DNA of 64,000 nt from Muricea muricata. Taxonomy: Eukaryota; Cnidaria; Anthozoa; Malacalcyonacea; Plexauridae. The position numbers and the translations under genes are program-made. Below are positions 23,379 through 63,939 of the stretch, piece after piece. Each line of letters opens with the position of its first letter. Position 1 is the stretch's first letter. The notes beneath the pieces are model-generated. The model was not told the origin of the DNA, ran no database searches, and saw only the letters and a program-made list of their open reading frames with translations. The stretch is from assembly GCA_963855995.1 (NCBI GenBank), contig OY979717.1, positions 19,691,906 to 19,755,905 of the forward strand. The letters run 5' to 3'.

Positions 23379-23849
23379 ATGGCAAACATAGGAGTCACAT
23401 TTCGAGTTGAATACGGTGTCGATTTAGGTCGTACTCCTCCACCAGCTATTTCCTTAAACATCCCAGAGGCATGCACTGTTTTTAACCTCGTTCAGATTGC
23501 CCAGGAAAATAGCGAAAGGCACTCGTTCAAATACAGAACCTACCCTGATATGGGAGCAGAAATCACGACAATTGACGGAATTGAAGAAGATCCTATCAAC
23601 GGCATCTATTGGTTTTTCTACAGCCCGTGGAACAAACTGATTCCTAATGGAGTTTCAAGGCATAAACTTAAACACAATACAACAGTTGTTGCACGATACG
23701 AGCGGTGGACGCGGACCGATCACTCAAGACAGAAAGCTCCTAGAAGACAGTTCATGAACATTAAGAAGGCATCCAAATCAAACGACGTGAAAAATAATAA
23801 CGATAAGAACAATAACACGACAAAGAAGAACGGAAATGGAAGCAAGTAG
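23379..23849 (+). CDS. small transcobalamin-like/DUF4430-like domain protein
   Basis: A 156-residue uninterrupted ORF with a good start context (CTAAAATGGCA), lying 53 bp after a strong splice acceptor. Residues 5-13 form a first strand, about 33-45 a helix (CTVFNLVQIAQEN) and about 50-110 the core. The core has the pattern seen in DUF4430/transcobalamin C-terminal-like domains: an ITTIDGI strand, a G-x-YWFFY strand, a turn ending NGVS, and a final VVARYERW strand. The last 40 residues are basic and Asn/Lys-rich, probably disordered. There is no signal peptide or membrane segment, so unlike secreted cobalamin binders it should be intracellular. The function is unknown. The fold assignment is by eye; that this is a real host gene is more certain. 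Confidence 0.7.
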   Translation: MANIGVTFRVEYGVDLGRTPPPAISLNIPEACTVFNLVQIAQENSERHSFKYRTYPDMGAEITTIDGIEEDPINGIYWFFYSPWNKLIPNGVSRHKLKHNTTVVARYERWTRTDHSRQKAPRRQFMNIKKASKSNDVKNNNDKNNNTTKKNGNGSK

Positions 23850-31947: not shown

Positions 31948-33417
31948 ATGGCGTATGCTACATGTTACTCTGATGCTCTTCGAAATGCTATATTACGTGT
32001 ATGGACTCCTACGGTTGGCGCAAGGTCATGGGAATCATTGATTGAAAGAAACGCTGAGGAAATTTTTGCTTCTGCTGGTCCATTTCTTGCTCCTGTTATG
32101 ATACGCGATAACTTTCCAAACAATCTCCATTTTCCAATAGAATTTTATTCGGACGAACGACCGCCATTCCAATTTAAGGAGAAAATACTCTCCGGGAGTT
32201 GGAGTGAAGGATTATACTTAATTGGTTACTCTAACACGTCAGTTCCAGATATGGATTTCATGCTCGTTCTGGATCATATTTCATTTTCGAAAGAAAGCCA
32301 ACGTTGTGGTAATTTGATATTGAAAGAAGATACACCATTCCTCGATGCTTACATAACAGATGAAAACGCTGCGAAACTGTGGAAAGAATTTTTGCATGAT
32401 AGAGATGAGGCACAAGGCAATCGTTTATCGTCAAAGAAGCTGAAAGAAAGACTTCGAGAAAACAACCAGCTAAGAGCCTATTTTGGAAACGCTTTGAAAG
32501 ACAAGCATATAACTAATGCAGATAGTGAGGCTATGTACACATTTCAAGGTGCCCATTCTTTTTCAATTATCAGTAGTATACTTAATTCAGTTCAATCGAC
32601 TATGTCAAAGGACAATGCAAGTAACATGCATACCCGTGCGAATTTTGCCAAGGACATTTATAGCGAGGTTTTCACAGGTTGTGATATTGTACTAGCCATA
32701 TCTTGTGATGGTTGGCCATCTTGTGCGAGAGAATGGATAACACGCGATCGAATTTGGCCACAAACTGATTTGATACAGAAGATCATCGACGGTGGTTTTC
32801 ATATTGTTCCAAAGAGTTCGACCGAAGGAGATTTTCGACTGCCATTTTCGTATGCTGAAACTACGCTCATTGCAAGTTTAACTAAGTTACAGCATAAGGT
32901 ACTTCGTTCTTTCAAAGCTGTTGTCAAATTTCACCAAAGTTCCTGGAGTCCAAATATCAAGGACATTATCACAATATATCACTTGAAAACAATAGCAATT
33001 TGGTATTTTGAGAAAAGAATGCAAAATTCATTCACCGAAGAAACTGTGGGAACCCATCTAGTTTTATTACTCCAGGAGTTGGCTGAGGCTTTGAGGTGTC
33101 GCGAATTGCCAATGTATTTTATGCCGAAGGTAAACCTCTTTAAAAATACTGAAAATCCTGAAGAAGCAATTGATATTGCGGACAAGATCGAGAAACTTTC
33201 AAACAATTTTGGTCTTGTAATAAAAGGAATAGAAAACATAACTTCTGGCTTTGCACTGAGTTTTATTCATCTTTCAAACATTAGTGAGATGATTGTTAAA
33301 AGTCCTTTACTTGATGAAACAGAAATTCAAAGAAATATGAAACAGAAACTCAAAGAACTATCCCGATTTTCCGAGCAGGCAAAAATTTACTTACAGTTCC
33401 TAAACCCACAGAACTAA
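31948..33417 (+). CDS. Mab-21/cGAS-like nucleotidyltransferase (cGLR candidate), copy 1
   Basis: A 489-residue intronless ORF. I start it at ATG 31948 (GAAAATGGCG, A at -3 and G at +4) rather than the in-frame TTG two codons earlier. Residues 83-88 read GSWSEG (the GS nucleotide-binding turn), D101 and D103 form the DxD metal-binding pair (PDMDFML), and D246 in GCDIVLAI supplies the third acidic residue. Then follow the Mab-21 hallmarks: WPSCAREW, an R-x-x-WP element, HIVPKSS, GDFRLPFSYAETTL and a YHLKTIAIWYFEKR helix. cGAS-like receptors of this family make cyclic dinucleotides on sensing nucleic acid and signal through STING in the cytosol. All catalytic residues are present, so activity is plausible, but ligand and product are unknown. 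There is no obvious cGAS-type zinc thumb. An ordinary Mab-21-like protein is the alternative. Confidence 0.85.
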   Translation: MAYATCYSDALRNAILRVWTPTVGARSWESLIERNAEEIFASAGPFLAPVMIRDNFPNNLHFPIEFYSDERPPFQFKEKILSGSWSEGLYLIGYSNTSVPDMDFMLVLDHISFSKESQRCGNLILKEDTPFLDAYITDENAAKLWKEFLHDRDEAQGNRLSSKKLKERLRENNQLRAYFGNALKDKHITNADSEAMYTFQGAHSFSIISSILNSVQSTMSKDNASNMHTRANFAKDIYSEVFTGCDIVLAISCDGWPSCAREWITRDRIWPQTDLIQKIIDGGFHIVPKSSTEGDFRLPFSYAETTLIASLTKLQHKVLRSFKAVVKFHQSSWSPNIKDIITIYHLKTIAIWYFEKRMQNSFTEETVGTHLVLLLQELAEALRCRELPMYFMPKVNLFKNTENPEEAIDIADKIEKLSNNFGLVIKGIENITSGFALSFIHLSNISEMIVKSPLLDETEIQRNMKQKLKELSRFSEQAKIYLQFLNPQN

Positions 33418-35816
33418 AATTAATCATCATAAACCAAAACGGCTAGTAGAATAGGGAACAGAAAACTATAAACGAACAGCACATTATCTATGGACGAAGC
33501 TACGAGGAGTTCGACGTCACGTGTAGACTGAGACCCGCTTTATAAGGTAACGGATTCTCAAGGTCGCGCCTTGGAGTAATATTTCACAATTATATTTACT
33601 TTTAGCACTTTCTGTGTGATTAGTTGTCACGAAATTCTGTAATTTATATTATGGGCTTCAATAGACCGAAACAGATATGGACTGCAGCTGCCACTTTTAC
33701 ACAATATACTCTATACTACAACAAAAATTTTGTGATGCACAATGACATCATAGCACATTGTGCTATGACGTCATTGTGCTAAGCACATTTCAGGTTTGTG
33801 TAACTCCGTACATAATCAAATCCACAAATTTATTGCTACACAGTTACTGGGTGGCCATCTGGTATATTGCCAAGCAAAGTTAAGATCACTCAATTAACAA
33901 TCTCACATTGTGATACTGGATTTCTATGAGTTTGACAAAACTCAAGCTTTTTCTCACTTATGGATTTAGTGCGATAAATATATTTGCGATAATAACTTTA
34001 CTGTCACGCTTTGTATTATTTATACTAAGTAAAAATGTTCGCATTTTGCGATACAAATATGTTCAATTGATTTAAAGAGAAAACAGTAGATTTAGACTGA
34101 GAAACTATGCCTAAAAGCCTGAGTACATATAACGGTCGATAAGGCAAAACCAGAGAAAAATAACATTAATACAAGACGCACAATATGAATACAATACGAT
34201 AACACATTCGCTACATTACATTTACTTGCTTAATTAAGAACAATGAAATAGACCAAGAAAAGCATTCTTGGGCCAGAGTCAATCTTCCCTGAACACCATA
34301 AAGTAAAATCAGTGGGGCTGAAGTTTTGTTGCAAAAACAACTTGCAAAATCCTCTGCAAATTTAACACGGGCTTGCACTAAGCAGCAGCCCAGAGAAGAA
34401 CATAAATGTTCGGAACAAGATGAAAGCACCGACAAGTGATAATGTAGAATTATCACAAATTATTCTGAAATTTTGTAAAATCTCAAATTGCATAATATTA
34501 TAATTGTCATTTGTCACAAATGTTGGTCCCTAAAAAGTTAATTAATTGAATTTTCAAGGAATGATTATCGTCGATTTCAGGTCACTTTAAGTTTAATGTC
34601 ACTGTAATATTCCGAATTTCGTTGCGAAGTTCGGAAGTACTAGTTCGCTAGGCCGTATTCCCTGGCCCAAAAAATCGCTTAGAAAACGATTTTTGTTGCC
34701 CCTCTTATATGCTGAATTCGAATTCACTTGTTGCTACTCGCACAAACCTGTAGTTTTGTTGTATTTCACGAACAAACATCAATAAATTTCACTGCTTCGA
34801 AAGTCAATTTCCGCCATCTTATTAGCGGTACTTGATGTAGTACAGGTTTAATGTACTAGTTCCAGTCACCTAGCTGGATATTTCATGCGCGGTTATAGAC
34901 ATTTTATGCTTATTTTAAAGGTGGTCTACAAGAGTCCGTAATGTAAACAAATGCTTTGTTTACATTTCAAATAGCTACATTTTGTAAAATATGATGTACT
35001 GACTGAAAAGCGTACCCTGTTCCGGAAGTTATGCTAGCAAATGAATATGAACTATAATCAACTCATTCCACCTGACTTCCTGACAGTGTTTATGTTGATT
35101 TTAAAAACTATTTTAACAGCAAAATAGCGAATTTCACAAAGATCACCAACGACGCTTTTCATGTTGTTCGAATTCTAAAGAGTTCGGCGGAATGAGATTT
35201 TGAAATCCGTTTTCACTCCATATCCTTGCAGTCTATCACACAGAAATAAAGAGTAATAATTAGAAATTTATAAAATATTTAATGTTGCCAGTATCCAACA
35301 ACTGTAGTTTGATGTAAGTTTGATAGGGTTACATCAACTGCCAACTGCCAAGTTATTTGTAATAACCTGCACCAAGGCTTAGCTTTTTCAACAAGAAGGC
35401 TCAGCCGGGAAAGAAACTGTAGGGAGCCACCCTAACTTGTGACTGAACGACACTAGAGCTCCACTCTAACCCAGTCAACTGTAATACAACTGGAACGCTA
35501 ACTCAATACAAAACTTCAGTTAATGGCTGAAGCCAAGTCAGTTTTTCTGAGTTTTGAGACAAAATACGTAACGCCAAAGATCCGACCGTATATCAAATTG
35601 AAGCTATTAAAAAGTTACACTTTAATACAAAAATTTTAAGACTTTACACAAGAAAGAAATGCCTAAAAAATACGAAAACAACTGCAATTTTGAAAAGTAC
35701 GGCAAATTACGACAAAGTTTAAGGTGTTTGTTTTTCACCTAAAACCTCAAAATTTTTACACCAAATACAACTTTCTAATAGCTTTCATTTGATGTACGGC
35801 CCATTTTGTCACGTTT
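33418..35816. other. no gene seen; CRE-like palindrome
   Basis: AT-rich. A hairpin of about 43 bp at 33737-33779 pairs GCACAATGACATCATAGCAC with its complement and includes TGACGTCA. Short ORFs elsewhere (for example 34211-34456 -) have no family signature. Confidence 0.35.
33737..33779. promoter_or_regulatory. perfect-arm palindrome containing a CRE-like TGACGTCA
   Basis: Two 21-bp arms pair with one mismatch; the right arm contains ATGACGTCAT, the consensus for CREB/ATF dimers, and the left has ATGACATCAT. It lies about 320 bp after the stop of cGLR copy 1. It may be regulatory or simply the core of a tiny MITE. Confidence 0.3.
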
Positions 35817-36292
35817 AACATTCCAAACCAAGAGTGCACAAACAAGCCAGTCTTAAATCTTTCATACATGCATCAGTGGAAGCATATTTTTCAACGATGG
35901 CTTTTATCATATCGGTAGAAACTGGTACTTTCCTTTCGATAGCCAGTCTACCACGTTTGGCTGCCTCCAAAAAACTCGATAAGATTGGGCTGTCGCAAGG
36001 ATTTCCGTGTGCGAACGGCAGGAAAGAATGATACCATTTTAGGCAGAATAAGATAACACTAAATTAGAATAAGACTGAGACTGGTTGAACACTTTGGCCA
36101 TATAGGCCAAAGTCAACGCAACGGACAGAGGTGGTGATGATTGGACACCCGCTACCTTGCACCAACTGATGAACTTTCCTATCTTCTTAAGATATCCTTG
36201 AGATGTGGACTGCGCCTTCGATTGAAATAACTGTTGTAGTAAGCTTGATATAACTGGTTTCACTCCAACTGGTAAATCATTCCATTCAGGAG
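35817..36292 (-). pseudogene. tyrosine recombinase fragment (DIRS/YR type)
   Basis: On the minus strand, an exon-like segment opens after an acceptor (CTTCCTTGTAG) and reads through HSPEWNDLPVGVKPVI, a helical core-binding domain (LKKIGKFISWCKVAGV) and, after a one-base frameshift near 36035, an EAAKRG region and DLRLACLCTLG. This is the arrangement of the SAM-like N-terminal domain and start of the catalytic domain in eukaryotic tyrosine recombinases. The catalytic R, HxxR and Tyr are absent because the sequence stops at about 35817. It is therefore a truncated, frameshifted copy, probably of the DIRS-like element whose RNase H end lies just upstream (37072-36647). Confidence 0.6.
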
Positions 36293-36646
36293 AATGTCTA
36301 AATATCTACAAGGAAGATTAATGTAAGCTCAGGTACAAATTACTGAAACGACAAAATTATTGCAACGCTTTATTAAATTATTTCTATTTTTTGTCACATT
36401 AAACACAACTACATTTTTTGGCAAACGCCGTCCTGCATGTCTGTATTTCCGGCCAGTACCGGCTATGTGTCAAAGTCAAACAATGTGGCCGGTGCCTGCC
36501 CTGCAACAACACAGTGAAAATCATCGATGCGAAAATAACATTTTGAAGGCCAGTGCCGCACTCTCCTGGTAAGAGCAACCCGTGTAAAGTGTAGAAATCA
36601 ATGATCAAATGGGAAACGGACTGCTAAAATGTCTCCAAAAAACCTG

Positions 36647-37072
36647 TCAGAACCCAACAGCGAGTTCGTATTTTTTCCATGTACTAATGAACTCTTCCCT
36701 TCGAATGAATGATACCCAACTATAAAATCCACATATTTCGCAAAATGGGGACGAGGGCCAAAATGGCACAATTACAGTAACTGTGGCTTTACAAACATAC
36801 AAATAATGTAATGTTCGGACAATTAAACCTACTGGTGGAACTACCAAACAATTTTCTCCTGTGAGCCTTTGGACAAAAAAATCTACTCCGCTGGAACCAG
36901 GATTCCAGAACCTGGAAAAGTACTTGCTAATTTTCTTATTGTAAAAATTGGCGAACAATCCACCGTGTGTTTGCCTCAAAGCTTTTCTACAGCTTCGAAA
37001 CAATCTTTTGTAATTTGCCAATCGTCGATGTCGATAAAACGACTTATAAATCAGCCTTTTGTAAAACCTCAA
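36647..37072 (-). pseudogene. DIRS-like RT/RNase H C-terminal fragment
   Basis: A 141-residue minus-strand ORF containing SRFWNPGSSGVDFFVQ, then ENCLVVPPVGLIVRTLHYL and TVIVPFWPSSPF. In DIRS1-like retroelements this NPG...D.F...W..E..W.VPP...I...I.HL...KA.GTL..P.WPSAPFW pattern joins the RNase H domain to the recombinase region. The order on this strand (RNase H end, then recombinase at 36292-35817) matches a DIRS-type element. The RT catalytic part is missing; the upstream boundary is at the Helitron-like sequence that begins at about 37076 on the opposite strand. Confidence 0.55.
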
Positions 37073-37075
37073 TTT

Positions 37076-39160
37076 TTTTATCTTAATGAATTAGAGTGCA
37101 GATTGCTTGCTCCAAGACTTGCTTTCCAAAAATTAATGCAGGCTCCTAGAGGTGGACAACTAAAAATCAATGGAAACACTGTTAATGTACCAGCAGATGT
37201 TATAAATACTGTTAACATGTTGCCAAGGTTTCCTAATGAAACCAGCAAAATTAAGGTTAACCTCAAAAGAAGATTGCAGAGCTAACAAAAGTTCAGCTTT
37301 GTCAGGCAAAATAAAGTAGCAGAAGCTGCTAAATGGCTTGTTAATAATGGTAACCTCTATAAAGATGAAGGAATAACTTTTAATGACACCTGGCTAGAGG
37401 ATTATCCAAATGCCTTTGTATTTGATAGTGATGACAATGATCAAATTTTATATGGTTCAAAAAATGTTGTCAACTCTAATGCAGAAGGTTTGAACGGTGA
37501 CACAAAATGTAAAGGTCAGCAAACAGTGTGTCATGATGATGGACACTGGAGTGAAGATGAAGAAAAAATGCCTGCAGGAATCACTGACACTATGTTATCG
37601 TCTCCAGATTTTGTAACTGATAATGAACGTCAGCATATTTTGAATGTTGCACCTGGTGAAGACAATAGCCCCATGAGTATATTTCGGGATACATACTCAG
37701 AAGAATTAGCGTATCCTGGTATATTTCTTGGACAGAAACGACCAGACAATACAAGTAGATTTACAAAAGTTCATTATAGTGAAATTTGTAAATCTGAATT
37801 AAGAAGGTTTGACCGACGAGCTGCAATGTGTGTGGAAAATATTTTTTTTTAAAAGAAAGAAGTCACAAATGAAGGTTTTGCTTGGGCAAACACAGATTGC
37901 TTTAAGAAAATGTAAACAGAATACCAGCACAAGTACTGCTGGTCAACTAAAACAACCGGGTGCATTAGATAGCATGATTCACCAGGATCAAGGATTTGAA
38001 TTTCTTAGAGCTGTTAGGGGTTCACCTCCATATCTTGAAAAAGCAAAAAAAGATATATGCTTCTTTGTTTTGTAGTTTCTCTTCAGCTGAGACACAATGG
38101 ATTCATCTACTGAGAATACTTGGTAAACTTGTTGATAACAAAACATACACTGACGCTCAACTTGAGAACCTCAACTGGGAAGAGAAAAGTAGGTTAATTT
38201 AGTGTGATCCAGTGACATGTGCCAGACATTTTGATTTTCAAGTACACAAATTTTTGCAAAACTTTCTTTTAAGACTGCACCAATAGGAAAAATTTCAGAA
38301 TGGTTCTATAGGGTTGAGTTTCAACAAAGAGGATCACCTCGATCATATTCATATGTTAATATGGCTAGAAAATGCTCCTACATTTGGTGTAGATTTTGAT
38401 TGCGATGTTGTTTCGTTCATTGATAAAATAATAATATGTGAAAGCCAACTGATAACGAAGAGTTACTTACACTCGTGAACAGGTATATTCATCGACATTC
38501 TTACGCTTGTCGAAAAAAGTCCAAAAGTGTTTGCCGTTTTAATTACCCACAGCCACCAATGAGGTCAACTCAATTTTATATCCATTAGATGTAGAAAATA
38601 ATGAGTTTAAAGAACATAAAAATGTCTGGGAATTTGTAAAGAAGTGACATGAAAGAGAGCCAGGATATTACATTTGACCAGTTGTTATTTAATCTTAAAC
38701 TGACAGAACGGGATTATTTGTTGGCGGTCCGATCCAGCCTCAAAGCACCAATTATTTTTTTTTAAATGAAAACCAAATGAATTAAGAATCAATAGCTATA
38801 ATGCTGCATGACTTTGTGCATGGCGTCCAAATATGGACATTCAATTTGTCCTCGATGTTTACGCATGTGCCATGTACATTGTACCATATATATCCAAAGC
38901 TTCATGGTACGACTCTACTGGTAAGCCACACATTAAACCATCTCGTGAACTGGATATAGATAATTATCCTCTTGAGATAAATTTGGATGATAATGATGAC
39001 AAGTTTGAGGAAAGCGAAAGTATACAAAAAAATAAAAAAAGAACAAAATGTAGAATTATCAGAAGTGTTTGTTTTAACAAGGACGTTGATTCTGAGAAAC
39101 ATCACCGTGAATTAATTATGTTATTCACATCGTGGAGAAATGAAACAACTGAGATTTAAT
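37076..39160 (+). pseudogene. Helitron/Helentron Rep (HUH) region, decayed
   Basis: Pieces in several frames together follow the Helitron Rep: NELECRLLAPRLAF, PRGGQLKINGNTVNVPADV and LPRF (about 37078-37230), VAEAAKWLVNNGNLYKD (about 37310), EFLRAVRGSPPYLEKAKKD (about 38000), SSAETQWIHLLRILG (about 38080), a decayed [12 protein letters not shown] copy-matching strand (about 38345; the HUH His pair is kept but the QRGSP lead-in is lost), and DIQFVLDVYACAMYIVPYIS (about 38835), where the catalytic tyrosines reside. Multiple stops and frameshifts make it non-functional. The N-terminal part of the element is absent, cut at the junction with the minus-strand DIRS-like fragment. Confidence 0.8.
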
Positions 39161-39499
39161 TAATAATTGTTCTTCTTACCAAGAGCGTTATTTACAAGTT
39201 AAATCTTCAATAGATGAGCAAATGAAACAATATGCTATTGGTGGTGAACATCTCGATGAAATCCAAGAAGAACTAAACAATACCTATGATAATGATGATA
39301 ATTATGATTTAGTAGCTCCAGGAACACAAAATATTGAGCGCGAAGACCGAAATGAAGGTACACAAGACCTACATCCAGAATTGAATGCAAACTATGATTT
39401 ATAATTATCTGGTGATCTTGGAATTCCTTCAACTACTTCAAATACTGAGCAGCTAATATCACATGATTACATGATATTATATTACAACAGGATGATACT

Positions 39500-41666
39500 T
39501 ACAGAGGAATGGGACAAAAATTGAACAAAGAACAAAAGGAATTTTTCTATCATGTGTTGCATCTTGTTAAAACATCTGACGATCCATTCTACTGTTTTCT
39601 TAGTGGGGGAGCTGGAGTTGGCAAGTCACATTTGACTAAATGTCTTTATCAAGCTGCATTATAATATATCATAATACAAGAGCAGGAGATGATTCCCATC
39701 AAGTGAAAATATTAATGCTTGCTCCAACTGGCAAAGCAGCCTTCAATATTAAAGGTAACACAATAAATAATGCACTTGCAGTACCAGCTTGTCAATCTCT
39801 AAAAAACTGCAAACGACTTGACTCAAGCAGACTAAACAATGTCGACTTGGTGGTTTAAAACTTATATTTTTAGACGAGGTCTCAATGGTTGGCAGCACGA
39901 TGTTTAATGTTCAAATACATAAGAGACTGAAAGACATAAAAGGGAGTAAAGATGACTTTGGTGCTGTAAGCATAGTTGCAATTGGTGATCTGTTTCAACT
40001 AGAGCCTGTCATGGATAGGTACATATTTAAGAATCTAGACAATTCAGAATATGCAATCCTTGCTCCTAATAATTGGCAAGATTACTTTAACATGTTCGGA
40101 CTGCAAGAAATAATGAGGCAAAGAGAGAGCAAAGTATTTGCTGAAACACTGAACAGGTTAAGAAAAGGCAAGTATATCGAGAATGATATTTTGAAACTCA
40201 AAGAAAGATTGATAAAAGAAGGTAGTAAAGAAGATCCAATGGATGTGCCTCATTTGTTTATTCAAAACTAAAAAGTAAATGGATTTAATGAAAAACTTCA
40301 TAATGCAGCAACTGGAGACAAATTCTCCATTAAAACGGCCGACAGTGTCATAGGAGCTAGCTCGGCTCAAATTCGAGACAAAATTTTGAGTAAAATACCA
40401 GACGATCCAAGGGAAACAAAGCAAATAGTTTCAGATCTTCAACTTTCCGTTGGAGAAAGAACTGATCGAAATAGCATTAAAAAAGTACGGACTGACGATG
40501 GCATGACCAATGGTGCCAGTAATGTCATTAAAAAAATACAGCTAAAGGAAAAAGATAAACCTTCAGGAGTAACATGGGTACAATTTGACCACTCCGATGT
40601 TGGTGAGAAAACCAGACACGAAAATAGAAATCTTCATGTTCAAGGTATCGATTCAACATGGACTCCAATTAAACCAATTACTACTCTGTTTGCTGTGGGC
40701 AGAAACCAATCTGCACAGATTGTAAGAAAACAGTTTCCACTTAGACCTGCTGCAGCCAAAACAATCCATCGTTCACAAGGTGACACTGAGGAAAGAATTG
40801 TTGTCAACTTCGATACAAGGAAAGCTATACCTCATATACATTACGTAGGTTTAAGTAGGGTAACAAAAATTGAAGGTTTATATATTACTGACCTTTGCGA
40901 AGAAAAAATAGTCGTCAATCTCCATGTTGCAGCCGAAATGGAAATTTTAAGAAAAGAGCGTGCTTTAAAACTTAGTGTCACTCCTATTTATGAAGCAGAA
41001 CAAGTGTTATTTAAATTATGTTACCTCAACGCGCGCTCATTACATAAACACATTAATTATGTTCGTCATGATTTAACTTTTACAAGTACAGATATTAACA
41101 TATTTTCGGAAACACGATGTATGAGATCAGATAATGATACCATGTATGAAATTAGTGGTTACACATTCTTTAGAAATGAGAGTCACTCTTTGACTTCAAG
41201 ACCATTTGGCGGCATGGCAGTTTTCAGTCGAGTTGAATTTTTACCTGGGTATCCACATTGTCATAATATTAATGGAATTGAGATAACCTCTGAGATAACA
41301 GTCATAAAAGTAATGATTCTGCCACACATTACCATTATAGGTATATATCGATCATCCAAAATTCAAGTCCAGCAACTGTTAGCAGCTTTGACTGAGGTTT
41401 TGGTGTTATCTACTTCGCAATTTAATGTTTTCATAGGTGACTTTAATATCAATTGGTTTGATGAAGCCAGTAGAAGACCTTTATATAATTTCTTCGTTAA
41501 TGATAATAACTACAGACAATTAGTGTGTAGTACAACTACAGATAATAAGACTTTAATTGATCATATTTACACAAATTTACCAGAATCACAAGCAAGGTCA
41601 CACATATTAGAAACATATTTTTCGGATCACAAAGCAATATGCGCGTTAATTAATTGCTTTCATTGA
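39500..41666 (+). pseudogene. Helentron Pif1 helicase fused to AP-endonuclease-like domain
   Basis: Walker A (GGAGVGKSHLTK) is at about 39605-39640, Walker B (FLDEVSMVG) at about 39870, GDLFQLEPV at about 39985, and the late motif KTIHRSQGDTEERIVVNF with VGLSRVT at about 40758-40865. The uninterrupted 40386-41666 ORF runs from helicase into an endonuclease/exonuclease/phosphatase domain. That domain has LNARSLHKHI, FSETR (catalytic Glu), GGMAVFSR, GDFNINW (catalytic Asp), IDHIYTN and FSDHKAI (catalytic Asp-His). This helicase-EEP fusion is the diagnostic layout of Helentrons, a Helitron lineage that captured a LINE-type endonuclease. Stops near 39660, 39858 and 40270 break the helicase half, while the endonuclease half is intact. 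The element's 3' hairpin was not identified. Confidence 0.8.
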
Positions 41667-41754
41667 AACAAAATAGCAATGCAAAGTTTTCTAGAGACCA
41701 ACTAATCTGGCAAGAAATACCAGTATACTAGAACTTCTCACAACAATTTAATAA

Positions 41755-42380
41755 CTTGGTTTTCCTCGGGGACTCCCACACATTCTTATAATGCTCTCAG
41801 GCGTACGTTTCATAGCATCTTTCGCAGATACATGTACGCATGGCGTACCTATTTTTAACATATACCTTTATGATTTGCCCAATGTGACAAAGGAGTCGTC
41901 GCTTGAAACATACGTGGATGATTCTAAAATATTTCTATCATTCCCAAATGTGGATGCGGAAAGTGCAGCTACTAAAATGTCGAGGATGTGAACAAAATAA
42001 CTATTTGGTGTTATTCGAACAGTCTGTTAGTTAATCCAGCCAAAACACCAAGTTTCTTTTAATAGGCACGCAGCAATTATCAGAGCGATTGCTGGAAAAT
42101 TTTCACATAACTGTCTTTGATAAAGAAATAAGGCCTGTTCTAAATGCAAAAGACTTGGGAATGTTACTGGATTCTTGGTTGTCTTATGATAAACAAATTA
42201 CAAGTGTTGCTTCAATGTGCATTGCGAAGTTGTGTCAAATAAACAGAGTTAAACATATTTTAGATAAACGTACATTAACATTTAACGTACGTTATGAATT
42301 CGTTAATCTTTAGCAGAATGCATTATTGTTCCTCTGTTTGGTCCAATACCGCAAAGAAAAATATTGCCAAGCTACAAAGT
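41755..42380 (+). pseudogene. CR1-like LINE reverse transcriptase fragment, 5' part
   Basis: Frame-broken RT: CTHGVP then IFNIYLYDLPN (motif B region with the QGSILGP core lost), SLETYVDDSKIFLSF (motif C with both Asp present), then NPAKT, and KDLGMLLDSWLSYDKQI with CQINRVKHILDKRTL (thumb region). It ends at AAGCTACAAAGT where another element is inserted, and the same ORF resumes at 43545. No 5' endonuclease domain is attached; the EEP at 41.0-41.66 kb belongs to the helicase ORF. Confidence 0.75.
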
Positions 42381-43544
42381 AAGAAAAAATTGAAGAAGGA
42401 TTATACATAGTGAATAAATACAAACGTTCTCTGAGCAAATAATTTATAATTCGAGCTTTCGGCTGCCAGACTGCCAACAGGAAGCAAAAATAAAATATAA
42501 AACTATATGCAAGCAAATATGGAACACAAAGTAACATTATATATATGCACAGGTTAAGCCTTATTCAATATTATGCGACAATGTTCTGGTAGTGGTTTTG
42601 AATTTTTGTCCGATTCAGCTGTAATCACTGTGTGCCACGACTCTAATGTTTTTCTTGTCCGATAGGCACCCTTATCAATAACTTGCTCATCTTCAAAATT
42701 AATTATGTGGTCATTAATCCAAGAATGACTCGCTATATTTGAGCCAGCTGCCTATGTTTTGTTTGACGTTCCGAATATGTTCCTTTTTTCGTGTTTCGAA
42801 ACATCTTCCTGTTTCGCCAATATAACTCCAAGAGCAGTCCTTGCAGGGTTTTTGTAGATTACGTTGGTCTGCTTTTCGGTTTCAGGTCTGTCTTTGGGAG
42901 AGGGGAATTCTTGTTGCAGTTTTGTTGCAGGGGAATTCTTGTTGCAGTGGTCTTACAAGAACACTGCAACAAGAATTCCCCTTTCAGCAAGAATTAACAC
43001 ACAAGAACACCGCAACAAGAATTCACCTTTCAACAAAAATTCACCTACAAGAAAACTGCAACAAGAATTCCCCCCTCCGAAAGACAGACCTGAAACCGAA
43101 AAGCAGACCAACGTAATCTGCTAAATCCCCTGCAAGGACTGCTCTTGGAGTTATATTGGCGAAACGGGAGTCGGGAAGGTGTTTCGAAACACGAAAAATG
43201 GAACAAATTCGGAACGTCAAACAAAACATAGCTGGCTCAAATATAGCGAGTCTTTCTTGGATTAACGACCACATAATTAATTTTGAAGATGGACAAGTTA
43301 TTGATAAGGGTAACTATCGGACAAGAAAAACATTAGAGTCGTGGACTCGTGGCACACAGCGATTTGGACAACAATTCAAAACCACTACAAGAGCAGTATC
43401 GCATATTATTGAATAAGGCTTAACCTGAGCATTGTGTTCCATATTTGCTTGTATATAGTTTCATATTTCATTTTTTGTTTTCCCGTTAAATGCTGCAGTC
43501 TGGTCTGAATATTATTTGGTCTGAGAACATTTGCTTTGTTCATT
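42381..43544. mobile_element. Penelope-like element remnant, inverted-dimer form, with 12-bp TSD
   Basis: Flanked on both sides by AAGCTACAAAGT (42369-42380 and 43545-43556), a perfect 12-bp target duplication splitting a LINE ORF. Its two halves (about 42460-42930 and 43041-43500) are reverse complements. The plus-strand half encodes a GIY-YIG endonuclease segment typical of Penelope-like elements: CKDCSWSYIGETG, FETRKMEQIRNVKQN and a SWINDHIINFEDGQVI region, with one frameshift. No RT domain remains. Penelope-type elements often leave 5'-truncated copies in inverted arrangement, which fits. The central 42905-43075 part is rich in GCAACAAGAATTCCCC-type repeats in both directions. Confidence 0.75.
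43156..43416 (+). pseudogene. GIY-YIG endonuclease fragment (Penelope-like)
   Basis: An 86-codon open stretch; only residues from about FETRKMEQIRN to GNYRTRKTLES match the second half of the Penelope GIY-YIG domain (Arg of the R-x-x-EH region, Asn/His-rich middle and the Glu near RKTLES). The GIY-YIG strand itself (CSWSYIGETG) lies just upstream at about 43140-43170 in another frame. A decayed mirror copy lies on the minus strand at about 42560-42840. Confidence 0.65.
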
Positions 43545-43838
43545 AAGCTACAAAGTGTTCAGATTGAATCCGGTGCATGGAAATATGATCAGGTCACACC
43601 ATTACTTCAAAGTTTGGGATGGCTACCAGCCCCACCGTACTTGAGCGAGAAATTTGAATTCGGGTCGGAGCTTCATAATGTCAACACAAGAATTAAGCAA
43701 GAACGACTTAAATATTCCACTTTATACTGTACGTCAGCTTCTGGTCAGCGAACTTTTTACTTTAAAGCAGTGACTCTATGGAATAATCTTCCAAAAAATA
43801 TTAAAGATATTGATACCCTTAGAAATTTTAAAATATAA
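43545..43838 (+). pseudogene. CR1-like LINE reverse transcriptase fragment, C-terminal part
   Basis: Continues the LINE interrupted at 42380: KLQ, then YDQVTPLLQSLGWLPAPPYL and a C-terminal tail QRTFYFKAVTLWNNLPKNIK. This Y.HITP.L..L.WLP...AVSLWN.LP pattern is the usual end of CR1/L2-type ORF2 proteins. The segment between GWLP and APPYL is deleted. Confidence 0.75.
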
Positions 43839-43860
43839 TATAAACGTATTTAATTAGATC

Positions 43861-45802
43861 AATTTTTAGAAAGTAGTAAAATTAAATAGCATAATTTTCT
43901 TATTTAAATTAAATGTAAATAAAGAAACGTTATATGTAGCTTTAAAGTAAAAGTATAATGATTTTGTGAATATGAATACTGAAAAGCCCTTTTGGGAGGA
44001 TCTATTGATGTTTAATAATAATGATAATAATAATGCATACTTTAAGAAGAAATTGAATAAATAATACTCAAGGACAAAAATCAAGATGAATGGAAACAGG
44101 CTTAAATTCGTCTGTTGTTTTGGCTGCAAAAACTTATATATCGATATTATTCACTAGTTCCACTTCCCCAAAAATTGATGACCAAAATAAATTGGTACTA
44201 GTACAGGTGTATGTACCACAGAATACCACACAATTTTCTACCATTCATATTTTATGTCACAAGTATATATCATGGACTATATTATTGGTTTTTTGGAAAG
44301 ATTTTCCCTGCAGTTTTTCTTCCTGTGGGTGTTGCGGTTAGATTTAGCATATTCTAGTAGTTCTGAAGCATGACATTATTTGGATAAAATCCTAATGTAC
44401 CACAGAATACCAGTGTGGCAATGAATAAGTAACGGTTTATCAAATTGAACCAGGATTTGGTCTTTGATGCTGTATGGTAATACTGTATAGATATTGCTAT
44501 CTAATTTAGTAGAAGGTTAATACTAAAGCCACTACATAATACCCATGGTATATACTACTATATATCAGGTTTATCAATAATGTTGAAAGATCGCGTTCTT
44601 TTATAGCAAATTTGATTGCTCCCTGTTATTCTTGAATGGCAGGAATGTTTTTTCGCTTAGTACAAATGTCTATGAACATAATTTATGTTGGTTTGCAAAC
44701 CTATTTTCGAACGTCCTGATTTTACGAGCATTTAGCAAAAAAGAGGTATCAAAAACAACGAATTATATTTAAACATTATCCTCGTTTCTTTTAAGAATTT
44801 TTATTAAAATATTCATTTTTCTTATTTATGTGTCAATTAACACCAAAATTAATATATATTTACGAGAATAAAGTATTTTGCATGTTTCTTTCAAATTTTA
44901 TACTGAAAATAAATACGACTGGTATTCTGTGGTACCGAGATATTTTGTGGTACATATACCTGTATACAATGCCTTGATCCACCGCAGCATTTTGGGTATT
45001 GACTTGAGGTCTGGAATAAACTAAGCAGACGGGTAGGATATAAAAGCCCCCAATCACTTTTAAAAAAATGTTGGAAAAAAATGCCGGCGAAAAGCAAGAC
45101 ATGACTGCATTGTATTGGAAGTACTTAAAATCTATTCAATTTGTAAATTGACATGCCTGGGACTGCGTAGTTGCTTTAGAACATAAAGTTCTATGCTTAT
45201 AAAAATGCTTATAAAAAAATCTTGAAAAATCTCAAATTACATGACATTGTCACAACTGGTGGTCTGTAAAGTCGAATCACTAAATATCCATTAATTTTAC
45301 GGGAAATTGTTTAGTTTTCGATTGTCCTTTCGTTCTTTTGCGCTTGCTATACCCCTCTTTTCTTTTCATTTTTCAAATTTTATTTGTGGAACCCCGCCGC
45401 AAACAAGTCGGAATTTGTTTCTTTCTCGGTGGACCTTTTTCGGTTCTTTTAAATTAATTTTGACCATATTCCAATTTATCTCAATACAAAAGTGCGAAAT
45501 TGCAAAATAACAAAAAGTAGGAATATCGATTTCCGGATAAAATGAAACTAGATTAAATATTATGCATAAAAATGCTAATTGTTTCGAGGTTACAAAAACA
45601 GAAGATCTGTGACTGCATGAACAGACTATACGTGTTACCCATTGGGCATATAGCTACATACAGTTTGTCTTTACTGATCAACCTTTTGTGAATTGTACAA
45701 TAATACTGTTTTAAAAAAGGCTCCAGTAATTTGTATTGGTTAACATCACGGGGAATGACTAGAGATTGAGCCTTTTCCACAGGTACTATTAATACATTGA
45801 AA
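43861..45802. other. no gene seen; CCACAGAATACC inverted repeats
   Basis: AT-rich. TACAGGTGTATGTACCACAG (about 44202-44227) is matched in reverse at 44921-44964, and a further copy of GTACCACAGAATACCAG lies at 44397-44413, so a small foldback element may occupy about 44202-44964. A pyrimidine tract with acceptor-like CACAG at about 45773-45782 precedes the second cGLR gene and may end a 5'-UTR intron. Confidence 0.4.
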
Positions 45803-47260
45803 ATGGCGTATGCTACGCGTGACTCTGATTCTCTTCGAAATGCTATATTACGTGTATGGACTCCTACGGTTGGCGCAAGGTCATGGGTATCATTGATTGA
45901 AAGAAACACTGAGGAAATTTTAGCTTCTGCTGGCCCATTTCTTGCTCCTTTTATGATGCGAGATCACTTTCCAACCAATTTCCACTTTCCCATAGAATGT
46001 TATTCCGACGACAGACCGCCATTCCAATTTAAGGAAAAAATACTCTCCGGGAGTTGGAGTGAAGGATTATACTTAAATGGTTACTCTAACACGTCAGTTC
46101 CAGATATGGATTTCATGCTCGTTCTGGATCATATTTCATTTTCGGAAGAAAGCCAACGTTGTGGTAATTTGACATTGAAAGAAGATACACCATTCCTCGA
46201 TGCTTACATAACAAATAAAGCCGCTGCCAATCTCTGGCAAGAATTTTTGCATGATCGAGACGTGGCACAAAGCAATCGCTTGTCGTCAAAGAAGCTAAAA
46301 GAAAAACTTGGCGAGAACCACCAGCTAATGGATGTTTTTGGTTACGCTTTGAAAGACAATGCCTCAGCAAATGAAGATGGTGCAGCCAGGTACACATTTC
46401 GTGCAGACAATTCCTTTTCACACATAAATAGTTTACTTAATTCAGTTCAATCGTTTATATCAAAGGAAAATGCAAGTGAATTACATGCCCGTGTGAATTT
46501 TGTCAAGGACATATACAGTGAGGTTTTCACAGGTTGTGATATTGTACTGGCCATATCTTGTGATGGTTGGCCATCTTGTGCGAGAGAATGGATAACACGC
46601 GATCGAATTTGGCCACAAACTGATTTGATACAGAAGATTATCAACGATGGTTTTCATATTGTTCCAAAGAGTTCAACCGAAGGAGATTTTCGACTGTCAT
46701 TTTCGTATGCTGAAACTACGCTCATTGAAAGTTTAAGTAAGTTACAGCATAAGGTACTTCGTTCTTTCAAAGCTGTTGTCAAATTTCACCAAAGTTCATG
46801 GAGTCCAAATATCAAGGACATTATTACAACATATCACTTGAAAACAATAGCATTTTGGTATTTTGAGAAAAGAATGCAAAATTCGTTCACCGAGGAAACT
46901 GTGGGAACCCATCTAGTTTTATTACTCCAGGAGTTGGCTGAGGCTTTGAGGAGTCGCGAATTGCCAATGTATTTTATGCCGAAGGTAAACCTCTTTAAAA
47001 ATACTGAAAATCCTGAAGAAGCTATTGATATTGCGGACAAGATCGAGAAACTTTCAAACAATTTTGGTCTTGTAATAAAAGGAATTGAAAACATAACTTC
47101 TGGCTTTGCATTTATCTGCAATATTCTTTCAAACTTTCATAAGATAAGTGTTAAGCATCTTGAAGAACGGAATGCTTTACCTGATGAAAAGCCTAAAGGG
47201 ATATTACAATTTTTAGAGAAGGCAAGAATTTACTTTCAATTTCTAAACCCACAGAACTAA
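45803..47260 (+). CDS. Mab-21/cGAS-like nucleotidyltransferase (cGLR candidate), copy 2
   Basis: A 485-residue intronless paralogue of the 31948 gene. ATG 45803 is chosen for the same context (TTGAAAATGGCG). The GSWSEG turn (83-88), D101/D103 and D246 sit at the same residue numbers as in copy 1. The rest of the Mab-21 core (WPSCAREW, HIVPKSS, GDFRLSFSYAETTL, YHLKTIAFWYFEKR) is nearly identical. Divergence is concentrated in residues 138-234 and in the last 55 or so; both copies end KARIYFQFLNPQN or close to it. An AATAAA occurs about 13 bp after the stop. With both copies open and catalytically complete, an expanding receptor family is likely; a housekeeping Mab-21 role is the alternative. 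Confidence 0.85.
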   Translation: MAYATRDSDSLRNAILRVWTPTVGARSWVSLIERNTEEILASAGPFLAPFMMRDHFPTNFHFPIECYSDDRPPFQFKEKILSGSWSEGLYLNGYSNTSVPDMDFMLVLDHISFSEESQRCGNLTLKEDTPFLDAYITNKAAANLWQEFLHDRDVAQSNRLSSKKLKEKLGENHQLMDVFGYALKDNASANEDGAARYTFRADNSFSHINSLLNSVQSFISKENASELHARVNFVKDIYSEVFTGCDIVLAISCDGWPSCAREWITRDRIWPQTDLIQKIINDGFHIVPKSSTEGDFRLSFSYAETTLIESLSKLQHKVLRSFKAVVKFHQSSWSPNIKDIITTYHLKTIAFWYFEKRMQNSFTEETVGTHLVLLLQELAEALRSRELPMYFMPKVNLFKNTENPEEAIDIADKIEKLSNNFGLVIKGIENITSGFAFICNILSNFHKISVKHLEERNALPDEKPKGILQFLEKARIYFQFLNPQN

Positions 47261-47347: not shown

Positions 47348-47794
47348 TACACACGTAAAAACGCAAAAGTTGCTACAGACCTGCAAACAATTTGTAACAA
47401 GTCTCTACACAAGTTGTTCACAAGACGCATTCGCACTGCTTGTTCCGAATTTGTTGGAACAAGTTTGGAACAAGCTGTTGACAAATTGTAACAAGCTTGA
47501 TGGGACTATCAGACCTGTTACAAGGTTGTTCCAGCAAGACTGATACAGCATGATATAACAACATTGTTACAGCCTTGTGTTGTCAATCTTGTAACAAACT
47601 TGTTACAACAGGATTGTATCAAAGTTGTTAGAACAACCTTGTAACAAGTCTGATATTTTCATCAAGCTTGTTACAAGTTGTCAACAACAAGTTTGGAACA
47701 ACTTGTTGACAAACTTGGTACAAGCAGTGCGAACACATCTTGTTGACGGCTTGTCTGCAGACTTGTTACAAGTTTTGAGATTTTTACGTGTGTA
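47348..47794. mobile_element. ~447-bp MITE with 14-bp TIRs and TTGTAACAA-rich body
   Basis: Ends are TACACACGTAAAAA and its exact complement, with a TA at each outer end. The interior consists of many diverged, two-way copies of CTTGTTACAAG/TTGTAACAAG words, so the whole element folds on itself. It is non-coding and lies about 90 bp after cGLR copy 2. Confidence 0.75.
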
Positions 47795-48061: not shown

Positions 48062-48544
<483 letters not shown>

Positions 48545-48779
48545 TGGTGTCGCCGAACACGTCTGTAGAGTCGCCGAACATGGCCGTTGTTGTTGTACGT
48601 TGGTGAAATTATCTGTACGCTTGCTAAAACGCTCCTAATTTTTAAAGGTTTAGTAAACAGAGTATGACTTGTTTATGTCTTTATTAGAGGATAATTCTAG
48701 CTTCCTTTGCTCTAAACTAAATCAATGAACACTGCAAAAATTTAAAGCAATTAGATCCGAAGCAATATTTCTATGCAAG

Positions 48780-52081: not shown

Positions 52082-52270
52082 CTCTTTTTAATTTTTTACA
52101 AAGAATCGAACATTTATTATAAGTGACTATTAAGTTTTTTTGTTTACTAACTTTTTTATCATTAATTCATTCGATTTGTAAAGAATATAATTTTTAATAA
52201 TTAAGGATTTTCTGATCTGTAGAGTTAGATAATGCGGTTTTTGTATTCATATCTGAACTTATTATATGTG

Positions 52271-52643
<373 letters not shown>

Positions 52644-54566
52644 TGAACAATTACATAGAACATAACATCCAGAAAGGTTTTACTCCTAAAGTTGCAGGAA
52701 CTCTTGAGCATACCGCTCATATGGCGCATATAATCAACACAGCCCGTATTAAACAACGATCTGTTGTAATCACCTTGCTTGACCTTAAGAATGCATTCGG
52801 CGAACTCCATCATAACCTCATTTACGAAGTCCTTCAGTATCATCATCTCCCACGTGAAATAAGTGACCTAATCCAAAGTCTTTATACCAACTTCCAAACC
52901 TCTATTATAACCGAACAGTTCAGTACTCCGTTTATTGCAATCGGTCGCGGCGTCTTACAAGGTGATTGTCTCAGCCCTTTCCTTTTTAATATGTCTTTCA
53001 ATACGTTTATTCAGCATATAAAATCTGAAAAATACTCCCAACTTGGCTTTTGGAAATTTAATAAATCTGGTATTCCGTGCAATCCCATTCATTGGTTCCA
53101 ATTCGCAGACGACGCGGCTGTCATCAGCAGCCAAGAAAAGGAAAATCAAATTTTGCCCAATCGTTTCTCAGTCAATGGGCCAACATGATCATACGTGTTG
53201 ACAAGTGCTCCTCATCTGGAATTAAAAAACACTCATCCAAATCTATCCAGTACCAACCAAAGCTGTTCGTAAATAACCAACTGATACCCCGTATCGAAAT
53301 CGGTAAATCTTTCTGCTATCTTGGGCGTTATTTCGATTTCAACATGTCTGACGAACGACACAAATCTGAATTATGTGATCTGTTTAATAATATCATATCA
53401 AAAATTGATGAATTACCTTTACACCCCCGAAATAAAATTCTTCTATATAGTCGCTACTTGCTCTCAAAAATCTCGTGGGAATTGGCAATAACCGATATAT
53501 CTAAAACAGGGATTTGCGAAACTTTAGATACCCTTGCTTCCAGATATATCCGAAAATGGCTCGAACTTCCAATCTCTGCTACCCTTAGCAACGTGTTTCT
53601 CCCCCGAAACAAATTTGGTTTAAATGTCATTCTGCCGTCAACGAAGTTTACCCAATGCCAAACTGTCTCACGGTCAAGTTTAAAAACGTCCATGAATGAA
53701 GACATCAATAAGTTATGGTCAATAACAAGCACGAGTAAGAATATTCAGTACGACATGTACAAAAATACAAAGGATGTATTCAAAGCTTTTAGAAATGATA
53801 ATGAACAGAGACTACAAAACCATCTCATCTTACAAGGTTCTTTCTTCTCAAATGTCATCAAAAACTCCACGTCATCATTCAATTCCCTATGGTCATCTGC
53901 TCAATCCAGACTTCCTAAGAATATATTTAACTTCACGGTTCGTTGCATCAACAGTTCCCTTCCTACTCGAAAAAACATGGTCAGATGGGGTCTGTCATCA
54001 TCGGCTGATTGTTCATCCTGCTTTTCTCCTAAAACACTCATGCATGTCATCTCTGGATGTAAGGAATATCTAAATGAAGGACGTTTTACGTGGCGACACG
54101 ATTCAGTTTTGAATTTCATTACGTCCAGCCTTACGTGTGTCAAAGGATCCAAACTTTATGTTGATTTACCTGGCTTTATTACCCCGTCAGTTATCACTGG
54201 TGATGAGTTACGTCCAGACCTTCTCTTGACAATTGAAAATAAATTATTACATATTTTGGAACTGACTGTAGGCTTTGAAACGAATGAATTAACTCAGATC
54301 GAAAACTTAGAAAATACTTGCCACTTATTTCTGATCAAGAAAATAACTTTGATAAAGTAAAATTCGTTAATGTATCCATAAGTTCGCTAGGGGTATTTGG
54401 TCAATCGGCGAACACGTTTATTGATATGCTTAAAGATTTGAAGTTTGATGAACAGCATATTAGATACGTTAAAAAGAAAATTATTTCTACTTGTATTCGA
54501 GCATCTTACTACATATTCTGTCAGCGAAACAAAGACTGGACTAGCCCAGAACTTTTAAAGATTTGA
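52644..54566 (+). pseudogene. RT/endonuclease ORF of the 52644 LINE
   Basis: Read in three frames: 52644-53150, about 53150-54315 and 54318-54566. The middle segment (427 residues if opened from 53077) carries the thumb, zinc knuckle and endonuclease; the last gives the C-terminal YYIFCQRNKDWTSPELLK helix. Both RT catalytic Asp motifs and the endonuclease Asp/Glu residues are still recognisable, so decay is recent. Confidence 0.75.
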
Positions 54567-54717: not shown

Positions 54718-55053
<336 letters not shown>

Positions 55054-60519: not shown

Positions 60520-60617
60520 TTATTCAGTGTAAATGTTTATCAATCGGTCTTGAATCGTAGTTTTAACTATGAATCGGATATTGTAATGATTGATCTTCTA
60601 TTAAAGTTTAAAAAAAA
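60520..60617 (+). other. resumed 3' UTR of the third RLE LINE
   Basis: After the duplicated CTTATTCA, sequence ending ATTAAAGTTTAAAAAA runs into (TTA)n, resembling the 3' ends at 48344 and 54717 (AATAAAGTTTCC then ATT repeats). This is the best evidence that the CR1-like LINE is nested. Confidence 0.5.
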
Positions 60618-60870
<253 letters not shown>

Positions 60871-61415: not shown

Positions 61416-63939
61416 ATGGCTCAACAACATCAAGAAAATATCTGGTAAGTTGATATGTTGTATTAAATTTTGGGTTTAAAGCGGTCTTATGAATTTGGTT
61501 TTATGTTTTAGGAGAGACCAGTTTATGGAAGAGCTGGAGAATGAGGAGTTGAACCGTGAACTGTGTGCGTTGGCGGTGGACGACATGTTTGGGTCATGGT
61601 CGCCAGAGATTCAAGAACAATTTCTTGCCGAGTGGAACGACTGGCAAAATGAACCAAAAAAGTCCGGTTACATGTGTGATCAGTGCGGTAAAGAGTTTAC
61701 GCGTTCGTATGATCTGAAACGTCATATTCGAAGAGTTCACACGGCCGAGCGACCACACGTATGCAGTACGTGTGGTAAGGATTTCAAGACAGGAGATAAG
61801 TTAAGACGCCACGAAAAAATCCATGAAGATAAAACCTTCGAGTGTCATAAATGTCACAAGAAATTTGATCGGAAGGTATGTTTTGTTTGCTTTTTTTAAG
61901 TTTGAATTATTCATGCTTTATAAGCTATGATGTTTATTTCCTGTTGCTAGGATAATCTCAATAGACATTTGGAAATGCACGAGAAAAGGGGTGCTGAACG
62001 TGAATATTCATGTAACATCTGTGGCGAGGTGTTTAGAAATATATTTCCACTACAAGCTCATCAGCGGAATGTGCATCAAGTCGGTGGTGGGAAGCGGAAG
62101 GAAACAGACCCTACAACATCAACCCGAACAAAACGAGCAAGAGTAAGCGAAGGTAAGTTGTGTCGGCTACAATTAAACAAATGATCGAGACTTCAAATGT
62201 AAAACTTTTGCCTCTGTAGAGACATCGAACGATCAAGTGAGTGGTCGTAAGCGCAAGGCGACTGAAACTACATCGACCCAAGCGAAACGAGCGAGAGTAG
62301 ATGATGGTGAGCATAAAAATTGATATTATTCAAATATTTCTCTTCCTAGGAACTTCAACATCGGGTGCAGTTTATGTCAATTTTGCGAATCGCAGATGTT
62401 TAAAAAACAATGTTATTTTTTTATCTAGGGGCTTCGACGTCCAATCCATTTCCTCAAGATCCCGTCTACCCACCAGCTGATGTACCGTCTACACTACATC
62501 GAGATCATTGGCGCACCATCCGGACAAGACAAAGTCGTGGCAACCGAGTCCAGGATTGGTACAATTACCGCTTAAACTCGTTGAATATGGGCGAACTTGT
62601 TAGTGATGTTGAACGTATATTTCAAGACCAAACGACCGTATTTAAACTTAACCTTTCCTTTGGATTTGTACTGTTCAACAACGATACGGAGCAAATGCAG
62701 TACCACCACTCCTCTGCAAATAACAACCGGGTATTTGAAACACCGTTCCTTGTTCGGAATCGTGAAGATTTACAACAAGTACGTTTGGCGTTGGAAAATT
62801 TAGACGTGTTTGAATGGGCTCGACAACAACGTCCCAACTCCAAATGGATTGTGGTGGATATTACGAATGCTACGTTTTATGTGACAAAGCTTCGCGGGCA
62901 TCCTATTGGACGCAGTACTCGTCTACCTAAATACGTGTTGGAGAATCTCACTATTATTTCACTAGACTGCAACGAACATACTGGCTTACCGTACGAGGAC
63001 AAATTGTGTTTCTTCCGCTGTTTGGCTTTACACCGTGGATGTCACGCACACAATTTGGAACGCGACACGCAGCATTATTTTGAACGCTACGCTGAAGATG
63101 GGGGTGATTTTGATGGAGTTACACTCGAAGAACTTCCCGACTTGGAGAAATTGTTTGAACTAAATATTTATGTATATCGACTTGTGGAATATGAGGACGA
63201 AGACGCGGAGAAAACCGAGATTGTTGCACAACTTTTTCAACGATCTCACCGTACATACGCCAACAGCATGTATCTTAACCTATACGGAAGTCACTTCAGT
63301 TATATTAACAATCTTAAAATGTACTCAAAGTCTTACTGTTGCTCGAAATGTGACAAATTATGGAAAACAGCGTGGGCACTTAACAGGCACGAGAAAACCT
63401 GCGAAGCAACTGTACGACACGTGTTCCCTGGTGGCGTTTACAAAGTACCACAAACCATTTTTGATTTACTCGAAGATGAAGGAATCGTGATCCCTGAAGA
63501 ATTAAAATACTTTCCATATCGCGCGACATTCGACTTTGAGTGTTACTTCAAAAGAGAAGATCAGCACCCGGGAAACACAGCAAAGCTGACATGGGAAGCT
63601 GAACATATCCCGTTGAGTGTCTCTGTGTGCTCTAATGTTCCTGGCTATGATCAACCAAAGTGTTTTGTGTCCTCTGGTAATACAAGAGAAATGCTCAAAC
63701 AATTTATCGACTATTTGGTGGAAATTAGTCAGGAAAGCTATTCGCTATTGTTGGACCGTTTCTCTGATGTATTTGACAAAATCAGTCAACGGATAGCAAA
63801 CAGTGAGGTATGTTGTGTGTTTGACCACCTAGGTATTTTCGAGACTTGTACTTATTATATCTGTGTTTAGGTATGTAATGGAAGTAGCGAGGACAAATGG
63901 TTGGAAGAAATGGTGCAATGTCTTCTCACATTGAATCAG
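61416..63939 (+). CDS. C2H2 zinc-finger / family-B DNA polymerase protein, spliced, 3' incomplete
   Basis: Exons 61416-61444, 61512-61875, 61951-62152, 62220-62306, 62429-63807 and 63871-63939 join in phase through canonical GT-AG introns of 63-122 bp and run on past the window. Residues about 65-171 hold four C2H2 fingers (CDQC, CSTC, CHKC, CNIC). About 175-230 is a basic KRK/KRAR region in two similar copies. A large N-terminal polymerase region follows (VQDWYNYRL, FKLNLSFGFVLF, QQRPNSKWIVVDITNATF), then CFFRCLALH with a later GSHFSYINNL (OTU-like, tentative), a CSKC...H finger and ATFDFECYF (about residue 596), the DxE ExoI motif of protein-primed family-B polymerases. Such proteins drive Polinton/Maverick-like and related elements. 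The reading frame is intact. Confidence 0.75.

Follow-up and report, generated by a model that had tools for sequence, protein, structure and literature searches.

Expansions of cGAS-like receptors (cGLRs) have already been published for cnidarians and bivalves, many of their members having no known ligand; the published animal set comprises 3,020 cGLRs, and 42 cGLRs and 7 STINGs are reported for Stylophora pistillata (PMC9980059; this and the other papers cited by PMC number are drawn on through excerpts of their text). Some acidic cGLRs are auto-active, their ligand being unknown and perhaps positively charged (PMC9980059). Here we describe two genes of this superfamily, A and B, in a 64-kb window of the Muricea muricata genome (C2:19691906-19755905; assembly of 453 Mb in 74 contigs), the window being the whole stretch of DNA analysed, within which positions are counted from its first letter. 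Because cnidarian cGLR expansions are already published, the array to which A and B belong adds to a known phenomenon; in the literature we recognised no paper that treats this array, which is a weak negative. We judge it probable that A and B are functional genes in a cGLR branch that expands in tandem and recombines, encoding nucleotidyltransferases that would feed STING in response to a trigger other than nucleic acid.

Genes A and B are real, intact and constrained members of the cGLR superfamily. Both lie on the forward strand as single-exon open reading frames (ORFs) of 489 residues (A, 31948-33417) and 485 residues (B, 45803-47260) that are open from ATG to stop, and both exceed the Pfam cut-offs for Mab-21 (49 and 54 bits for A and B, cut-off 24.1) and Mab-21_C (53 and 57 bits). 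The GSWSEG activation-loop motif at residues 83-88 (A, 32194-32211; B, 46049-46066), the D101-M-D103 part of the catalytic triad (A, 32248-32256; B, 46103-46111) and the third triad residue D246 (A, 32683-32685; B, 46538-46540) carry identical residue numbers in the two proteins, so that the ORF list, the motif scan and the Pfam search all bear out the first-pass annotation, which had described two open intronless Mab-21 frames with these motifs at the same positions. Its description of the copies as near-identical is too strong, because the proteins share 81.6% of their residues (396/485) and the DNA 89%, but two related intact copies they are. The 160 nucleotide differences between A and B introduce no stop, and indels are always whole codons. 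In neutral simulations of this divergence only 2 of 2000 runs stayed free of stops and none of 2000 showed as few amino acid changes as the 89 observed, which argues that both genes are under constraint. The coding tail of gene A, where the two genes diverge most, holds a 23-nt tandem pair (33314-33361).

Conservation across the family is concentrated on the putative active site. When 13 members, all carrying both PF03281 and PF20266, are aligned (489 positions, gene A numbering), 60 of the 489 positions prove invariant, among them G83, S84, S86 and E87. As had been proposed from A and B, the catalytic residues are retained: the GS pair, D101 and D103 are kept in 13/13 members and D246 in 12/13, with Glu in its place in L015. 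The list of active-site positions, drawn from knowledge of cGAS and MAB21L1, was fixed before the family was aligned. Eight of its ten positions (the GS pair, the three acids and lobe-2 R, S, S, E and Y) are invariant (p 1.2e-6, relatedness ignored), and with three lysines added the figure is 9 of 13 (p 1.7e-6). R297, S299, S301, E304 and Y344 were mapped to cGAS through the sequence alignment, and their roles in lobe 2 are in part presumed from general knowledge. The same roles also rest on PMC4897736. The form in which the cGLR motif is applied in its authors' methods, a G[S/G] loop followed by three conserved acids, is found in the family, spacing apart. The most likely identity of either protein is that of a nucleotidyltransferase.

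The pair belongs to an array that evolves by birth and death, since intact and broken relatives of A and B are found around the genome. A search of the M. muricata genome recovers 22 Mab-21 matches, A and B among them, and a protein search with gene A yields 44 matching pieces, which we group by position into about 24 places, the MAB21L1-like locus excluded. About 14 of the 24 cluster on C2 between 19.72 and 20.30 Mb; the others lie on C2 at 17.2, 44.0 and 70.6 Mb, on C3 at 46.1 Mb and on C1 at 122.1 Mb. The search ran exon by exon and scored the best candidates only, so these counts are lower bounds. The family expansion suggested by the first-pass annotation is therefore present and much larger than the pair. 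Of the 20 Mab-21 places beyond A and B, 16 belong to the family (E 1e-16 or lower against A in blastp). The four outside it are L001, L002 and L016, where the GS and acidic pattern is missing from a distant alignment to the family, and L020, a partial sequence, likewise distantly aligned, whose N-terminal half is missing from the piece read. The core ORF is open at 12 of 18 family places, A and B counted. Viral contigs and genome contigs, each searched with a few degenerate patterns, gave no relatives.

The stretch between the second and third triad residues behaves differently from the rest of the protein. This variable insert (residues 136-240; A, 32353-32667; B, 46208-46522, both on the forward strand) stands out in A-B identity and in the ratio of nonsynonymous to synonymous change (dN/dS) among paralogs, and over residues 136-235 only 63 of 100 amino acids are the same in A and B. 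By the Nei-Gojobori test on six close paralogs, dN/dS of the core is 0.12-0.31 in all 15 pairs and that of the insert 0.40-2.28. Synonymous change differs between insert and core in either direction depending on the pair: 6/61 against 55/119 for L009-L017 (p 4e-7) and 10/61 against 49/118 for B-L017 (p 7e-4), and the reverse for A-B, 24/64 against 9/119 (p 1e-6). The insert and core borders were picked after inspection of the data; measures that need no border give, for A-B, p 0.008 for the variance and p 0.015 for the maximum of synonymous change along the gene, and p 0.003 for the longest identical nucleotide run, the longest run of unchanged codons not being significant (p 0.11). Among nine paralogs the trees of codons 56-240 and 241-430 reject each other in the approximately unbiased (AU) test (0.024 and 0.005). 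Gene conversion among paralogs is the simplest account of the contrast between insert and core.

Homology between A and B runs from 7 nt before the ATG to 6 nt after the stop, with only short weak matches outside. The 5' flank of A matches paralog L006 and that of B matches L009 and L017, so that A and B are not simple duplicates of one another. A fresh tandem duplication was rejected on account of these flanks and of the difference in synonymous change given above. An origin as retrocopies, considered from the lack of introns, was rejected because MAB21L1/2 relatives are single-exon in Nematostella and vertebrates (PMC1784063).

In the modelling check that the first-pass annotation had proposed, the predicted structure shows a cGAS-like fold, homologous to cGLR and CD-NTase enzymes; an AlphaFold model built from only two sequences was unusable (predicted local distance difference test score 31.5). 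The top Foldseek match is MB21D2 (E 1.4e-13). A first tree of seven sequences left the placement unsettled. The trees used here comprise 180 core columns and nine non-family sequences, are unrooted and displayed midpoint-rooted, and sample a small set of animal cGLRs, Tc-cGLR (7lt2) being excluded because only a partial stretch of it aligned. MAB21L1 and L001 group together with ultrafast bootstrap (UFBoot) support of 100, apart from the family, which joins MB21D2 at 85. Forcing the family together with MAB21L1 and L001 gives AU 0.049, 0.099 in the Kishino-Hasegawa test and 0.29 in the Shimodaira-Hasegawa (SH) test. A grouping with MAB21L1/2, named in the first-pass annotation as the result that would count against it, is thus only marginally disfavoured: the AU value speaks against it, but the SH value leaves it unrejected. 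Other placements are also possible, none being rejected with cGAS and Cv-cGLR1 (AU 0.46), L016 (0.34), L002 (0.22) or Sp-cGLR1 (0.067), and all seven trees pass the SH test without rejection. The unconstrained tree has AU 0.0003 although its likelihood is the same as that of the MB21D2 tree, which we take as a numerical artefact of two equal trees. A family profile scores MB21D2 at 99.8 bits, Sp-cGLR1 at 96.5, Cv-cGLR1 at 59, mouse cGAS at 57 and MAB21L1 at 52; with gene A alone as query, Sp-cGLR1 comes first (58.9, against 52.7 for MB21D2). By tree and profile the nearest human relative appears to be MB21D2.

The genome encodes seven matches to the STING ligand-binding domain, three of them in tandem on C5, so that a cyclic-dinucleotide receptor is at hand. 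Two of them, L021 and L025, were scanned, and in both the STING transmembrane domain is present as well. In L025 (C4, about 17042159-17042662) the two domains lie in an open frame of 844 amino acids whose long C-terminal tail is polar and repetitive. The tandem STINGs L021-L023 (C5:1157087-1165883) lie about 110 kb from the divergent Mab-21 piece L020 (C5:1273500-1277000).

In the mechanism that we favour, the GS loop would keep the site closed and inactive until ligand binding reshapes it. Two metals would be bound by D101, D103 and D246, nucleotides would be held by lobe-2 residues R297, S301, E304 and Y344, and the cyclic dinucleotide produced would then be recognised by one of the STING proteins that the genome encodes. 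The insert that separates D103 from D246, swapped among paralogs through gene conversion, may tune the response of each copy. We infer this catalysis, product, ligand response and signalling, and with them a possible immune role, for A and B from the features described above.

Several observations weigh against this reading. The published active-site motif of Li et al., h[QT]GS X8-20 [DE]h[DE]h X50-90 h[DE]h (PMC9980059), has no match in A or B in its strict form, because a Ser precedes GS and the last spacing is 140 in both. D103 and D246 are separated by 142 residues (family range 122-149); with a G[S/G] loop and X50-90, A has no match and B has one only at a different acid, D177, and with widened spacing the two genes match at D246. 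In Sp-cGLR1, too, the spacing appears to be longer than X90, at about 104 by our reading of chain positions. Position 299, which aligns to the cGAS nucleotide pocket, is Ser in 12 of 13 members and Pro in gene A (32842-32844). For insert dN/dS above 1, none of the 15 pairs reaches p <0.05 (best 0.055); proven positive selection on the insert, which counts of synonymous codons had suggested, was accordingly dropped. Foldseek places MAB21L1 above cGAS, and the fold alone is no proof of catalysis, because MAB21L1 shares the cGAS-like fold. Finally, no product was seen from MB21D2, the nearest human protein, in vitro with any of the ligands tested (PMC8410604), and shrimp Mab21 proteins signal without cyclic GMP-AMP (cGAMP) synthesis (PMC12928593).

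These last points are what make a non-enzymatic role conceivable, the fold serving as a kinase-activating scaffold, as in shrimp Mab21, or in development, as in MAB21L1. Shrimp Mab21 activates IKK-epsilon with neither nucleic-acid binding nor cGAMP synthesis (PMC12928593), and the MB21D2 crystal is in an inactive state (PMC8410604). A scaffold, however, would need no GS loop, triad or lobe-2 nucleotide residues, yet these are kept across 13 divergent paralogs, whereas the MAB21L1-like L001 of the same genome, which groups with MAB21L1 at 100, does not display them. We therefore regard adaptors as an unlikely, though the least unlikely, of the rival explanations.

The first-pass annotation proposed sensing of nucleic acid, and as classical sensors A and B would use a basic groove to bind double-stranded RNA (dsRNA) or DNA (dsDNA) and would then synthesise a cyclic dinucleotide. 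The fold and catalytic set are those of such sensors, and Sp-cGLR1, whose structure is among the two solved ones nearest in sequence, senses dsRNA (PMC9980059). The charge of the family points the other way: the isoelectric point (pI) is 5.3-6.5 in 13/13 family proteins (L009 partial), whereas cGLRs that sense dsDNA or dsRNA have a pI above 8.5 (PMC9980059), a correlate that disfavours nucleic-acid sensing and is no proof. The aligned C-terminal segments of A (pI 6.6) and B (6.2) are the lowest of seven, the others being 7.7-9.1, a measure by which MAB21L1 and MB21D2 (both >=7.7) are not distinguished from sensors. The sensing part of the proposal is thus not supported, and we consider classical sensors doubtful; going by charge, the trigger of A and B is probably not naked nucleic acid.

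About as doubtful is a more specific version of the favoured reading, namely that the array is a radiation of the MB21D2 branch, STING-coupled cyclic-dinucleotide synthases that would perceive a ligand other than nucleic acid, such as a protein or a polyamine, through the gene-converted, fast-changing insert, with P299 altering the product or making A a regulator. Far less credible than any of these is a decaying duplicate cluster carried by transposons and devoid of present function, for although 6 of 18 family places are broken (L005, L008, L009, L011, L018 and L019, of which L009 is a partial sequence), about six further places in the gene A protein search are broken or fragmentary (rows with stops or short fragments), the C-terminal tail ends early in L014 (residue 450) and L017 (449), short of the end of A's tail, and the locus is rich in transposons, against decay stand the open cores at the other 12 places, the core dN/dS in 15/15 pairs and the A-B constraint that no neutral simulation reproduces.

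Transposon material lies between the two genes, as first annotated: in the 12.4-kb interval 2 of 10 stop-to-stop ORFs scanned matched Pfam, giving a PIF1-like helicase piece followed by an endonuclease domain (39822-41666, forward strand; PIF1 1.6e-10, Exo_endo_phos 1.9e-6), remains that we take to be Helitron-like. The interval also holds nested inverted repeats with arms of up to 115 nt (42545-43432), and another nested inverted repeat, presumably of the miniature inverted-repeat transposable element type, begins about 130 nt past the gene B stop (47389-47774). Elsewhere the window contains a single-exon ORF at 23379-23849 with a DUF4430-like match barely below the Pfam cut-off (23.6 against 23.8 bits), an ORF of 486 amino acids at 62410-63870 that has no Pfam match and whose end may resemble the exonuclease part of a Maverick-type DNA polymerase, and ATT arrays of 67 to 128 copies at 48345-48545, 52259-52644, 54718-55053 and 60617-60869. 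A scan of the window against Rfam at gathering scores gave no match.

With young paralogs, a constrained core, a changing insert, recombination between core and insert, and several STINGs in the genome, the array offers a natural series for mapping the ligand determinant of a cGLR. Compared with known systems, its own character appears to be acidic and MB21D2-leaning. From cGAS the family differs in its acidity and its longer insert between triad residues, and A and B lack HX5CCX6C, which we take to be the cGAS zinc-ribbon pattern. With MAB21L1/2 the family shares the Mab-21 fold, and A and B the single-exon coding sequence of the Nematostella and vertebrate members (PMC1784063), but MAB21L1/2 have Gln, not Asp, at the third triad position. 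Sp-cGLR1 of S. pistillata (PDB 8gjy) shares 33% identity with A across 173 aligned positions of the core and is a dsRNA sensor that makes 3'3'-cUA (PMC9980059), whereas the A/B family is acidic and has a longer stretch from the second to the third triad residue than the roughly 104 residues that we read in Sp-cGLR1. Human MB21D2 (PDB 7lt1), which shares 26% identity with A across 151 positions, resembles the family in its DMDF and DIV..S..GWP blocks and in the wide gap between its triad residues (about 116 by our reading); unlike the family it has a Gly-Gly loop in place of Gly-Ser and no known ligand or product (PMC8410604). The array may also supply relatives of MB21D2 with an ordinary GS loop and, should the placement on the MB21D2 branch be right, a tractable route to the ligand of MB21D2 itself.
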